From Rhodobacterales bacterium UBA5972 (GTDB taxonomy: Bacteria; Pseudomonadota; Alphaproteobacteria; Rhodobacterales; Rhodobacteraceae), in assembly GCA_002430125.1 (NCBI GenBank), contig DJBQ01000005.1, positions 1-28,327 of the forward strand: a DNA stretch of 28,327 nt, in the 5' to 3' direction. Position numbers and translations under genes: made by a program. Shown one piece after another: positions 25,190 to 28,327 of the stretch (the stretch's first letter is position 1; the number at the start of each line of letters is the position of its first letter). The notes under the pieces are model-generated. The model saw nothing but the letters and a program-made list of their open reading frames with translations. It was not told the origin of the DNA and searched no databases.

Positions 25190-25972
25190 ATGGATTTGAA
25201 AGACAAGATTTGCATCGTTACCGGGGCTGCCGGCGGGATCGGCAAAGGCATCGCAGCGCGGTATGTAGCGGCCGGGGCAAAGGTGGCCGTGGCGGATTTG
25301 CGCATGGATGCGGCCCAAGCGACCGCCGCTGAACTGACCGCGATGGGGCCGGGTTCGGCGATGGCTGTGGCGATGGATGTGACGGATGAGGATCAGGTCA
25401 ATGCCGGGGTTGCCGCCGTGGTTGCGGCCTGGGGTGGGGTTGATGTGCTGGTGTCAAATGCCGGAGTTCAGATCGTCCACCGGGTCGAGGATTATCCGTT
25501 TTCCGACTGGAAAAAGATGCTGGCGATCCATCTGGACGGGGCGTTTCTGACCTCCAAAGCCTGCTTGCCGCATATGTATGCGGTTGGCGGCGGGACGATT
25601 ATTTTCATGGGCTCGGTGCATTCCAAAGAAGCCTCGCCTTTGAAATCGGCCTATGTGACGGCCAAGCATGGTTTGCTGGGTCTGGCGCGGGTGATTGCCA
25701 AGGAAGGCGGGCCGTTCCGGGTGCGCACTAACGTGATCTGCCCCGGATTTGTGCGCACACCTTTGGTGGAAAAGCAGATCCCGGAACAGGCGAAAAGCCT
25801 TGGGATTTCCGAGGCCGAGGTGGTCAGCAAGGTGATGCTGGGCGGTACGGTGGACGGCGAGTTTACCACGATTGAAGACGTTGCCGAAGTGGCGTTTCTG
25901 TTCGCGGCGTTTCCGACCAATGCGCTGACCGGGCAATCGCTGAATGTCAGCCACGGGTGGAATATCAGCTAA
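25190..25972 (+). CDS. bdhA: 3-Hydroxybutyrate dehydrogenase (SDR family)
   Basis: NAD-dependent short-chain dehydrogenase that interconverts 3-hydroxybutyrate and acetoacetate, a step of polyhydroxybutyrate breakdown. The Rossmann motif is [15 protein letters not shown] occurs in SNAGVQIV, and the catalytic YVTAK gives Y155 and K159. Features favouring 3-hydroxybutyrate dehydrogenase over other SDRs are [44 protein letters not shown] and the C-terminal [11 protein letters not shown]. Length is 260 residues, normal for the family. ATG 25190 is preceded by AAGGA at a good distance. No neighbour for acetoacetate use is visible in the window. Confidence 0.9.
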
Positions 25973-26301
25973 GCGCCACGCCTGAAGCCCCGCCGGGCGG
26001 GTGCCGGGCAGGGTTTGGGGTGTCTCGTCAGGTTGGGTCGAAAGAAGGCGGGCCCGCCGATGCGGTTCATGTGCCGAACGGGGTTGATGGCCCCGAAACC
26101 TGTCGATCTGTCGGTTATCCGGCTTGCCCCTCGGAATGTTTACCGTGATGTACGGGGCCGAACCATATTTAAGCGCTTAAGGCGGCGGTTTAGCGGGGGT
26201 GGGTTAAGGCAGGGTTTCAGGGGCGTTCGGTGGTTTGGGGGATTTGGCAACGGTGCGTTCAATCAGACCGGCCCGGTCAGCGCCTGACCCGCAGGCTGGC
26301 A

Positions 26302-26394
26302 GGGGATTGCCTTCAATCCCCGAGAAGAGCTCCCCCAGGAGGGCGCTTCGCTTCCCCCAAGGTCGGGCGCTGACCTTGTGGGGAAGAAGCTCTT
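26302..26394. repeat. Nested hairpin block at the island edge
   Basis: Three nested or adjacent pairings are visible. GGGGATTG-cctt-CAATCCCC is a perfect eight-base stem (26302-26321). AAGAGCT (26325-26331) pairs with AGCTCTT (26388-26394) and encloses the rest. Inside it, CTTCCCCCAAGGTC (26351-26364) pairs with GACCTTG-t-GGGGAAG (26372-26386) around GGGCGCT, a 14-base stem with one bulge. It could be a structured RNA, a strong terminator, or the end of a mobile element. Pairing is seen directly; function is unknown. Confidence 0.6.
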
Positions 26395-26486
26395 GAGTGA
26401 CATTTTATAAAAAAGGATCGATGTTGCCACTTGATAGAGCATAATACGTTCTGTTCTTGAAGTTGTGATGGATGCAATTTTTGCGC

Positions 26487-26515
26487 TTGTTTTGACTAAT
26501 TAGGTCACTTAAAGT
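26487..26515 (+). promoter_or_regulatory. Candidate promoter of the two-gene island
   Basis: TTGTTT (26487-26492) and TAAAGT (26510-26515), 17 bases apart, about 60 bases before the first island gene. A perfect TTGACA at 26535 has no usable -10 at the right distance. Weak evidence. Confidence 0.28.
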
Positions 26516-26573
26516 TGAACTAGGGCGCGCACTATTGACATTTGTTCACTTTATGTTCTAAACGGAGTTTGAA

Positions 26574-27494
26574 ATGAGAAAAAGCGCGCATTATCGGCGT
26601 TGTAACTGGCTTAATGAAAACATGTTTCAACTCCAAACGGTTCTCGAGGAAGCACTTGATCTTGGAGGTGAGTTTGGCCTTCCAACGTTTAATTTGAGTG
26701 ATGACGTTGAATGTGTTGTGGCACGTCAGATCGAGGTAAACGGACGATTATTTCTAAATATGGTATCTTTCGAGCATGGTGCCGGAGCAGCAGTAATCCC
26801 AGCCCTAGGAGGGGCAGAAGCTGTAGATACTGACGAAATCGAACCGCCAGCAGGAATGGAGTATGTTCAGGCACAGTTGCTTTGCTTAGTCGAAGGAAAC
26901 AACGTCATATGGACTACCCACAATTCACCAATTCGCGAAGGTTCAGTTGCTCATTTTCTGAGACAGTTGCTTGCCGAGCATCATAATCAAGATGAGGCGG
27001 CTAACTTTGTACTTAAGGCCGATCTCAATGTTGAGCAATTGAATGTTGCGTTTGAGGAGGGAATTGAGGAAATTGACTTAAAATTGGGTGGATTTAGGAG
27101 CTCACTTGAAGAAGCATTCGGAATTGACCCTGTTGGCGGTGATGGATTTGCTTCACATTTGCGGTCATTTCTCCGTGGGCGACCAACCGTTGAAGAAATG
27201 CAGGCTGCCGCAGAAGTGGAGATGAAAGTCGTTTTGCGACCTGGTAAGTCGTGGAAGAAAGAGAACGTTAAGGAATTCCTATCTGTAATAGGTAAAGGAA
27301 TATACGAAGAGCGAGACGAGCTAGATGAAGGTTTCGCAATAGTCACAAAAAGTGGTCTTAGGCTAACACGGGACAAGCTTACAATTCATAAGCCCTTCTC
27401 TGTGGATGGGAACAAACGCTTAGTAGATCCATTTCAAGTTCGTGACAGGTTGGATGAAATCTTGACGCAATTGATCGCAGACGGCGTGGTGTGA
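26574..27494 (+). CDS. Soluble protein of unknown function, first gene of an AT-rich pair
   Basis: A 306-residue protein I do not recognise. No signal peptide or membrane segment is visible, so it is probably cytosolic. The N-terminal half (residues 1-120) reads as mixed alpha/beta, with strands such as EVNGRLFLNMVSFEHG and a buried strand LLCLVEGNNVIWTTHNSPIREGS. The middle (about 150-230) is acidic and probably helical (VEQLNVAFEEGIEEIDLKLGG). The end has basic and acidic helices around SWKKENVKEFLSVIGKGIYEERDELDE, then a strand-rich tail. ATG 26574 has GGAG six bases upstream. Base and codon use are clearly AT-richer than the flanking genes, a sign of transfer. The membrane-protein gene follows after 21 bases, so the two are probably one unit. 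Function unknown; a defence role is only a guess from architecture. Confidence 0.8.
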   Translation: MRKSAHYRRCNWLNENMFQLQTVLEEALDLGGEFGLPTFNLSDDVECVVARQIEVNGRLFLNMVSFEHGAGAAVIPALGGAEAVDTDEIEPPAGMEYVQAQLLCLVEGNNVIWTTHNSPIREGSVAHFLRQLLAEHHNQDEAANFVLKADLNVEQLNVAFEEGIEEIDLKLGGFRSSLEEAFGIDPVGGDGFASHLRSFLRGRPTVEEMQAAAEVEMKVVLRPGKSWKKENVKEFLSVIGKGIYEERDELDEGFAIVTKSGLRLTRDKLTIHKPFSVDGNKRLVDPFQVRDRLDEILTQLIADGVV

Positions 27495-27515
27495 AGTTGA
27501 AAAAGGAAAGTGTTG

Positions 27516-27998
27516 ATGCCCCTAAGACCAAAAGTAACTTTATCGAGAAGTGCATTTGTGGTTGTTTCGATAGCTGTTTCTTTAGCGGTTGGGTGCTTTG
27601 CAGGTGAGCCTCTACGCCTTTCAGAGAAGCCGTCTGAATATATAGGACTTCTGTTTTCAATGTTGGCCGCCGCGATTTTTGCCGTAGTGTCGATTATCGG
27701 GGACCCTAGCATGTTGCTTCCAGGAAATCGACGACTTGCTTGGGAGAGTGCAGTTTCAATTCAAACAGACATTCAACGCCTCAATGTGGTTTTCTTTTTT
27801 CAGTTGTTGACGTTGTTTCTTTTGGTGGTGACTGAGTTGGTTGAGTTCATGAAATATGAAAGGTTCTATTGGACCTTCAATTTCTTGGGAGGACTTTCAT
27901 CCTTTAGTTTCATAATGTCACTATCGTTGCCGTTCGAGTTGGGCAAACTCCAACGCGAACGACTAAATGCTGAAATAAAAAGTAGAAAGAATTCTTAA
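27516..27998 (+). CDS. Four-helix membrane protein of unknown function, second gene of the AT-rich pair
   Basis: A 160-residue integral membrane protein I cannot place in a family. Four hydrophobic segments are visible: about residues 12-30 (FVVVSIAVSLAVGCFAG), 42-62 (IGLLFSMLAAAIFAVVSIIG), 87-110 (LNVVFFFQLLTLFLLVVTEL) and 120-142 (YWTFNFLGGLSSFSFIMSLSL). A charged cytosolic tail (KLQRERLNAEIKSRKNS) follows. A GTG at 27510 is open in frame, but AAGGA at 27503-27507 is properly spaced only for ATG 27516. The composition is AT-rich like its partner. It ends four bases from the stop codon of the convergent ettA, which fits insertion of the pair beside that gene. A membrane effector or sensor partner of the upstream protein is a reasonable inference, not shown. 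Confidence 0.8.
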   Translation: MPLRPKVTLSRSAFVVVSIAVSLAVGCFAGEPLRLSEKPSEYIGLLFSMLAAAIFAVVSIIGDPSMLLPGNRRLAWESAVSIQTDIQRLNVVFFFQLLTLFLLVVTELVEFMKYERFYWTFNFLGGLSSFSFIMSLSLPFELGKLQRERLNAEIKSRKNS

Positions 27999-28002
27999 CC
28001 TC

Positions 28003-28311
28003 TCACCTCGTAAATTTCTGATACTTCACCCGTTTCGGCGTCAACGCATCCGGCCCCAGGCGGCGTACTTTGTCGGCCTCATAGTCCTCGAAGTTGCCCT
28101 CGAACCACTCGACGTGGGAGTTGCCCTCAAAGGCTAAGATATGGGTGCAGATGCGGTCAAGGAAAAACCGGTCGTGGGAAATCACTACGGCGCAGCCGGC
28201 GAAGTCTACCAGGGCGTCTTCTAGCGCGCGCAGGGTTTCTACGTCCAGATCGTTGGTGGGTTCATCGAGCAGCAACACGTTGCCGCCTTCGCGCAGCAGT
28301 TTGGCCAAATG
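28003..28311 (-). CDS. ettA: ABC-F translation factor EttA, C-terminal part (cut by right edge)
   Basis: C-terminal 102 residues of the energy-dependent translational throttle A, an ABC-F protein acting at the ribosomal E site. Visible are the Walker B stretch [24 protein letters not shown], the H-loop [22 protein letters not shown], and the EttA-type tail [33 protein letters not shown]. The tail distinguishes EttA from Uup and YheS. Translation is normal up to the His codon at 28309-28311, which belongs to the expected RVHLAKLL stretch. Beyond that the sequence is adapter, so the gene is truncated by the assembly, not by mutation. Confidence 0.94.
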
Positions 28312-28327
28312 AGATCGGAAGAGCGTC
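28312..28327. other. Illumina adapter read-through at the contig end (artefact)
   Basis: The final 16 bases, AGATCGGAAGAGCGTC, equal the start of the standard Illumina TruSeq adapter. The EttA reading frame is sensible up to 28311. At 28312 the residue expected before His-Leu-Ala-Lys (valine) is replaced by serine encoded by adapter bases. These bases are not genomic. Confidence 0.95.

Follow-up and report, generated by a model that had tools for sequence, protein, structure and literature searches.

The window analysed here, the whole 28,327-nucleotide stretch of contig DJBQ01000005.1 of Rhodobacterales bacterium UBA5972, carries close to its right end an AT-rich pair of genes for a soluble protein (gene 1) and a small helical membrane protein (gene 2; Table 1). 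We predict that this pair is most probably a horizontally acquired Rex-type phage-exclusion (abortive-infection) system in which gene 1 senses phage replication and activates the membrane-damaging gene 2. The open reading frames (ORFs) confirmed the arrangement described in a first-pass annotation of the DNA: two co-directional genes with 21 bases between the stop of gene 1 and the ATG of gene 2, a ribosome binding site upstream of each start (CGGAG for gene 1, AAGGA for gene 2), and 4 bases between the stop of gene 2 and the stop of the convergent ettA. For gene 2 the ATG at 27516 was preferred to the GTG at 27510 given in the ORF list, because the spacing of the AAGGA at 27503-27507 suits this ATG. 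The sharp fall in GC content to the low forties was also real: 26395-27998 had 43.4 % (0.434), while 248 overlapping 1600-base segments within the rest of the window (1-26394) had a mean of 0.582, a standard deviation of 0.018 and a minimum of 0.541. This drop exceeds chance. The GC content at third codon positions was 0.392 in gene 1 and 0.425 in gene 2 versus 0.712 in bdhA.

Gene 1 and its predicted fold

Neither protein had a match above the cut-off in Pfam and NCBIfam, or any match at all in PADLOC. The homologues, 18 of gene 1 searched in Pfam and PADLOC and 34 of gene 2 searched in PADLOC, gave isolated weak matches with a best E-value of 0.0065. Weak PHROG matches of gene 1 (phrog_3482, E 0.017; phrog_26543, E 0.083) proved meaningful later: a phage member of the gene 1 family (L072) matched both, and the gene 1 relative of Escherichia phage Perceval matched phrog_3482 with 453 bits. 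Both PHROG families hold phage members of the gene 1 family; the library assigns them no function, and a RexA-like one is proposed here. The predicted structure of gene 1 had lambda RexA (8twq) as its best match, and RdgC was the third Foldseek match. Compared with the sequences of solved structures, the profiles A1, A2 and A4 gave only chance-level matches.

Two kinds of deviating homologue were observed. One protein (P0002, on a contig of 106645 bases) was identical to gene 1 through residue 251 and continued with a short unrelated tail, either a population variant or a different junction. In Aliiroseovarius crassostreae (P0018, P0025) a full-length gene 2 homologue accompanied a gene 1 homologue of 196 amino acids that lacked the N-terminal third; this pair has perhaps decayed or was mis-called.

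Gene order at related loci

Relatives of both families were found in the gene order of the lambda immunity region. In a genome of the window's taxonomic family (G300, locus L140:2329-4738) a CI-like repressor with helix-turn-helix and S24 peptidase domains ended about 85 bases before a gene 1 relative, the end of which overlapped a gene 2 relative. On the opposite strand were a gene resembling YdaS/Cro, with a score under the cut-off, and beyond it to the left a protein with weak similarity to CII. Both families here occupy their places in the lambda order cro / cI-rexA-rexB, and the locus is probably a prophage immunity region. The two relatives were detected by the narrow profiles A1 and A2, which had been built without them, with 30.5 and 27.0 bits (E 1e-5 and 2e-4 per million sequences). 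In phage Perceval the gene 1 relative (A1 28.3 bits, E 5e-5 per million sequences; A4 60.6) has the CI repressor upstream and a transmembrane protein, kil, gam and bet downstream. A homologue in Acinetobacter phage phi1_092021, labelled 'DefenseFinder protein', is separated from the repressor upstream by one small gene (A1 19.8 bits, alone not significant; A4 52.8). The partners in these two phages are membrane proteins too; the wide gene 2 profile A5 failed to find them and the narrow profile A2 gave at most 5.4 bits, so that the partner may have been exchanged or may have diverged beyond recognition.

The Rex-like partner gene of Shigella phage SfIV (L115, 2405-3827) codes for only 108 amino acids and adjoins a transposase gene. 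The source table of lambda itself (L023, J02459.1) labels rexB, rexA and the next gene, cI, all as 'rexb (exclusion;144)', an annotation slip.

Gene 2, the membrane protein

The model of gene 2 (predicted local distance difference test, pLDDT, 88.8) contained helices at residues 9-35, 37-61, 72-112, 119-135 and 138-159. The four membrane helices of the first-pass annotation agreed with the model and with a lower hydropathy threshold, but three clear helices remained at the other threshold; the protein probably crosses the membrane four times. A strongly conserved segment, SIL-A...V.SI.GDP, lies in the second helix and the following loop, with GDP at residues 62-64 of gene 2. Three lysine and arginine residues occur among the first 12 residues and six among the last 24. 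The even number of helices and the positively charged ends suggest that both termini and the GDP loop are cytoplasmic, within reach of gene 1.

Pairing and distribution

A member of the gene 2 family lay directly downstream of a gene 1 member in 7/7 loci of the first search, the window included. The same order was present in 19/19 viral contigs found by the gene 2 profile, which are not all independent (the Chelativorans copy recurs among them, and L069 resembles L070). Seven genomes were found via gene 2 among 295 of the same taxonomic family, and six kept the pair, the contig beginning inside gene 1 in one of these; the locus of the seventh extends just 77 bases upstream. Adjacency across genomes, proposed as a check in the first-pass annotation, was confirmed by these counts. 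Plasmid-labelled records of Sinorhizobium fredii GR64 and of Shinella (a record 4.6 Mb long) keep the order as well. The distances within the two families were correlated with r 0.89 over 30 pairs, a value reached by none of 5000 permutations; the comparison omitted exact duplicates, gene 1 ORFs shorter than 250 amino acids, and L078, L080 and L081, where the partner lies outside the gene 2 family. Both genes are inherited as one unit.

The distribution is patchy. Gene 1 was present in 1/41 relatives, the own genome alone, and in none of nine congeners. The gene 2 family occurred in 7/295 genomes of the taxonomic family and 1/289 of the class, and a wider gene 1 profile found 7/398 genomes of the phylum, the own genome included in both surveys; one of the copies found by the wider gene 1 profile had internal stops. 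Identities to the window proteins were 16-42 % in the gene 1 family and 18-52 % in the gene 2 family. Among the carriers are Chelativorans, Oceanicaulis, Sneathiella, Salipiger and Palleronia.

Ten proteins around six loci, the Salipiger locus being read from two records, were compared with family libraries and eight gave a family; as they had been chosen for looking informative, these families give no rate. The Chelativorans pair is adjoined by terminase subunits (two proteins), one Sneathiella pair has a baseplate protein 5 kb off and the other a tRNA-Phe 407 bases upstream. Downstream of the Salipiger pair (L009:1-2891 / L005:10001-14788) come an ORF that has CxxC-type motifs but had no Pfam match, the gene of a C5 cytosine methylase and that of a Vsr endonuclease, together a small restriction-modification cluster. 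An Eco57I-type methylase is 4 kb away from the Palleronia pair, a D12 methylase adjoins a viral-contig pair, and an IS1595 transposase adjoins the Oceanicaulis pair.

Three distant gene 1 relatives (L078, L080, L081) have a downstream membrane protein that is not recognised by the gene 2 profile; L081 adjoins, by eye, a Mu-type phage protease-like gene. The gene 1 relatives L020 and L069 had no tblastn match in named phages.

Strength of the link to lambda Rex

Several results weigh against a Rex-type system. PF15969 (RexA), which all 36 collected lambda RexA relatives carry, was matched at E<=10 neither by the window protein nor by the 18 members. With hhalign, the narrow gene 1 alignment did not match lambda RexA (probability 0.2), and a 45-member alignment, in a comparison that left out near-identical sequences, reached a probability of 34 % only (pair E 4e-4; score 35 versus 11-12 for reversed controls). 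The best match of the gene 1 profile in a set of 482 ORFs from outside the family was a lambda-type RexA from L053 (30.3; best of 460 decoys 25.8), the single one of 22 lambda-type RexAs to beat the best decoy; in the reverse direction 1/36 gene 1 relatives did so (24.9 versus 23.9). The gene 1 family minus its three nearest intermediates, which are three of the six members of the Perceval-type phage clade, matched the three phage proteins with a probability of 99 and an E-value of 6e-18. The Perceval-type clade scored 12.0 against lambda RexA, below the reversed control of 19.0, and did not match the actinophage RexAs. The 45-member family did not match the actinophage proteins Toast gp42 and Butters gp30 (13.0 versus 10.0 reversed), a weak comparison because lambda RexA itself scores only 21.3 there.

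The models and the gene context add to these objections. The gene 1 model had a pLDDT of 76.7, and its VIA alignment a root mean square deviation of 15.3 A. Gene 1 is acidic, with an isoelectric point (pI) of 4.82 (family median 5.27) versus 8.61 for lambda RexA, which speaks against simple DNA sensing. The structure search proposed in the first-pass annotation was successful for gene 1; for gene 2 it gave no match at E<=0.001 in PDB and BFVD among the best 50 of 198 and of 299 matches, and none to RexB. The hhalign score of gene 2 against lambda RexB was 25.2 versus 17-18 for reversed controls (probability 7.7), suggestive only, and homology is not demonstrable. No repressor was seen beside the window pair, the left neighbour of which is bdhA; the position directly after CI was found at L140, in Perceval and in phi1_092021. 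An S24-type ORF within 2.5 kb upstream was present in 3/36 gene 1 loci (L003, L014, L064; motif scan, confirmed by Pfam, L014 as L140); for many loci the sequence available upstream is shorter than this, and the scan would overlook repressors lacking the motif. Since the link of gene 1 to RexA at the sequence level is weak, the case for Rex rests more on predicted fold and gene order, which agree.

These were computed here together with the genes and their foreign composition, the membrane partner, the strict coupling, the co-divergence and the relatives in the lambda cI-rexA-rexB order. A soluble protein with a predicted RexA fold and, directly downstream, a small multi-helix membrane protein were both found, as expected of a Rex-type system. 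A transferred pair with a sensing soluble part and an acting membrane part, as the first-pass annotation had it, fits the patchy distribution, the foreign composition, the strict coupling and the RexA-like fold, and is partly supported overall.

Surroundings of the pair

Table 1. Gene pair and neighbouring features in the window
Feature	Position	Strand	Basis
Gene 1, soluble RexA-like protein, 306 amino acids	26574..27494	+	ORF; no Pfam, PADLOC or NCBIfam family; best match of predicted fold lambda RexA 8twq
Gene 2, helical membrane protein, 160 amino acids	27516..27998	+	ORF, structure model, conserved columns, hydropathy
AT-rich leader of the pair, 36.3 % GC, probably promoter region	26395..26573	+	Composition
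Hairpin-forming dispersed repeat that ends at the beginning of the AT-rich stretch	26269..26380	.	Repeat matches and DNA fold
Second dispersed repeat, between bdhA and the pair	26023..26195	.	Further copies in the same genome
C-terminal part of ettA, truncated by the contig end; right neighbour, convergent	28003..28311	-	ORF and orthologues
bdhA-like short-chain dehydrogenase, left neighbour	25190..25972	+	ORF; orthologues; name from first-pass annotation

The two core genes named in the first-pass annotation do flank the pair, but bdhA is no conserved neighbour of ettA. Orthologues of ettA were 88-94 % identical in 9/9 congeners, close bdhA orthologues (75-78 % identity) were present in 4/9, on contigs other than that of ettA (draft genomes), and none of the nine congeners showed bdhA in the sequence next to ettA, of which up to 1.5 kb was covered. 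No bdhA-ettA junction was found among them, hence there was no empty site to compare. The 3' side of ettA varied among the eight of nine congeners in which it was readable (in L086 the scan pattern missed the stop), and was GC-poor in two, L088 (G009) with 0.477 and L092 (G003) with 0.524; the site directly after ettA may receive accessory genes in this genus.

The end of bdhA and the start of gene 1 are 601 bases apart, and two dispersed repeat families with seven and three further copies occupy this space left of the pair. The repeat nearer to gene 1, which ends at the GC step, recurred on three other contigs of the genome, where 50-112 bases of the query aligned with 82-91 % identity, and its hairpin gave a DNA fold z of -2.9 for 26310-26420. 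The second had seven further copies on seven contigs (77-88 % identity) and one 22-base fragment. No sigma-70-like promoter match was obtained on the + strand within the leader; the scan yielded four promoter-like sites versus 1.9 expected, and the terminator scan gave figures close to chance. At the DNA level, 25973-28002 had no match in plasmids. The last 16 bases of the window (28312-28327, agatcggaagagcgtc) resemble what we take to be the start of an Illumina adapter, so that neither the end of the contig nor the initial residues of the ettA fragment are likely to come from the genome.

Proposed mechanism and alternatives

Trigger, contact, pore and growth arrest are modelled on lambda RexAB and P. 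putida RexAB. Gene 1 would act in the cytosol as a RexA-like protein, probably in the form of a two-domain dimer, and may detect phage replication through DNA, through a nucleoprotein complex or through a protein of the phage. The triggered protein would touch the cytoplasmic loop (GDP segment) and the C-terminal helix of gene 2, a putative inner-membrane protein that would then oligomerise or open; membrane damage would stop growth, and the phage cycle would not be completed. In lambda, RexA and RexB jointly exclude T4 rII, and exclusion does not strictly depend on DNA binding (PMC11077077, excerpt). In Pseudomonas putida both rex genes are needed for defence, over-expression of RexApp arrests growth only in the presence of RexBpp, dye enters the cells while no depolarisation was measured, and two-hybrid tests did not show binding of RexApp to RexBpp (PMC12894663, excerpt).

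The roles may be reversed, as in mycobacteriophage Butters, where the RexA-like gp30 is described as a toxic effector that the membrane protein gp31 holds inactive until infection (PMC12894663, excerpt). The layout is the same as in the window, and gene 1 is by its identity range slightly more diverse than gene 2. We consider this unlikely: the sharply conserved membrane and loop motif of the gene 2 family is expected of a working effector, RexB is the effector in lambda and three other systems (PMC12894663, excerpt), and gene 1 had no profile match to Butters gp30. Improbable, too, is a function outside defence, in which the pair, of prophage origin, would regulate recombination or the lysis-lysogeny switch through an RdgC-like DNA protein tied to the membrane. 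RdgC is among the first three structural matches, RexA itself biases the switch in lambda (PMC11077077, excerpt) and the copy in G300 follows a CI-like repressor; the rare occurrence of gene 1 among relatives (1/41), the strict pairing with a membrane protein and the location of two close relatives near DNA methylases argue against it, although repressors may yet lie among the neighbours of the related loci. Kiwa, named in the first-pass annotation as the closest system for its similar sizes and its one membrane protein (KwaA) beside one soluble protein of about 300 amino acids (KwaB with DUF4868), was rejected as very improbable: its membrane gene comes first, DUF4868 was absent from the 18 gene 1 homologues (Pfam, E<=10), no Kiwa model was among the PADLOC matches of the 18 gene 1 and 34 gene 2 members, in a library that presumably includes KwaA, and the predicted fold of gene 1 matches RexA instead. 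KwaA and KwaB were also missing among the structure matches listed, to which no weight is given.

A Rex-type exclusion system thus remains the preferred interpretation, and the pair may be part of something larger. Tentatively, we place it in a large unnamed superfamily of RexA-fold sensors with exchangeable small membrane effectors, in which one RexA-like family would be combined with at least two partner families that the profiles did not connect, the gene 2 type with the GDP motif and the Perceval/phrog_16807 type, in phages, plasmids and chromosomes. If so, lambda RexAB would no longer stand as an isolated curiosity of phages but as a corner of a modular platform of sensors and effectors. 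The abortive-infection system Rex of lambda has long been known and still lacks an explanation, and the described Rex-like systems were counted as five only (PMC12894663, excerpt). A coupled family in chromosomes, plasmids and prophages offers natural variants for asking what RexA senses and how the membrane partner opens, and a likely function would fall on PHROG families now listed without one. The first-pass annotation called the pair undescribed, which holds for the sequence family as far as searched; among the papers listed, no title or abstract beginning was found that describes it, and the text search of PMC13092281, the DefensePredictor paper, gave no mention of Rex. The kind of system is already known, with lambda RexAB as the better match. 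The architecture of this nameless family is ordinary; its sequence, location and breadth are unusual.

Comparison with known systems

RdgC is not known to have a membrane partner. It differs from the window pair also as a ring-forming recombination protein (PMC11077077, excerpt). The actinophage Rex-like pairs (Sbash gp30/31, CarolAnn gp44/43, Butters gp30/31, Toast gp42/41) have the same two-gene layout, and actinophage RexA homologues bind DNA (PMC11077077, excerpt); the gene 1 family had no profile similarity to Toast gp42 or Butters gp30, the two that were compared. RexABpp of P. putida (PP_5643/PP_5644), likened here by its published description, differs as it is prophage-borne beside a CI-like repressor (PMC12894663, excerpt). 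From lambda RexA-RexB (PF15969) the window pair differs in the missing Pfam-level match, in a gene 2 that is not demonstrably a RexB homologue, in the acidic gene 1 and in the absence of a visible repressor alongside; as RexA is a dimer with non-specific DNA binding, the pI of 4.82 is a warning. It shares with lambda the soluble protein with predicted RexA fold followed by a small helical membrane protein, and relatives of its family stand in the cI-rexA-rexB order. The pair appears to be a very distant version of lambda Rex.
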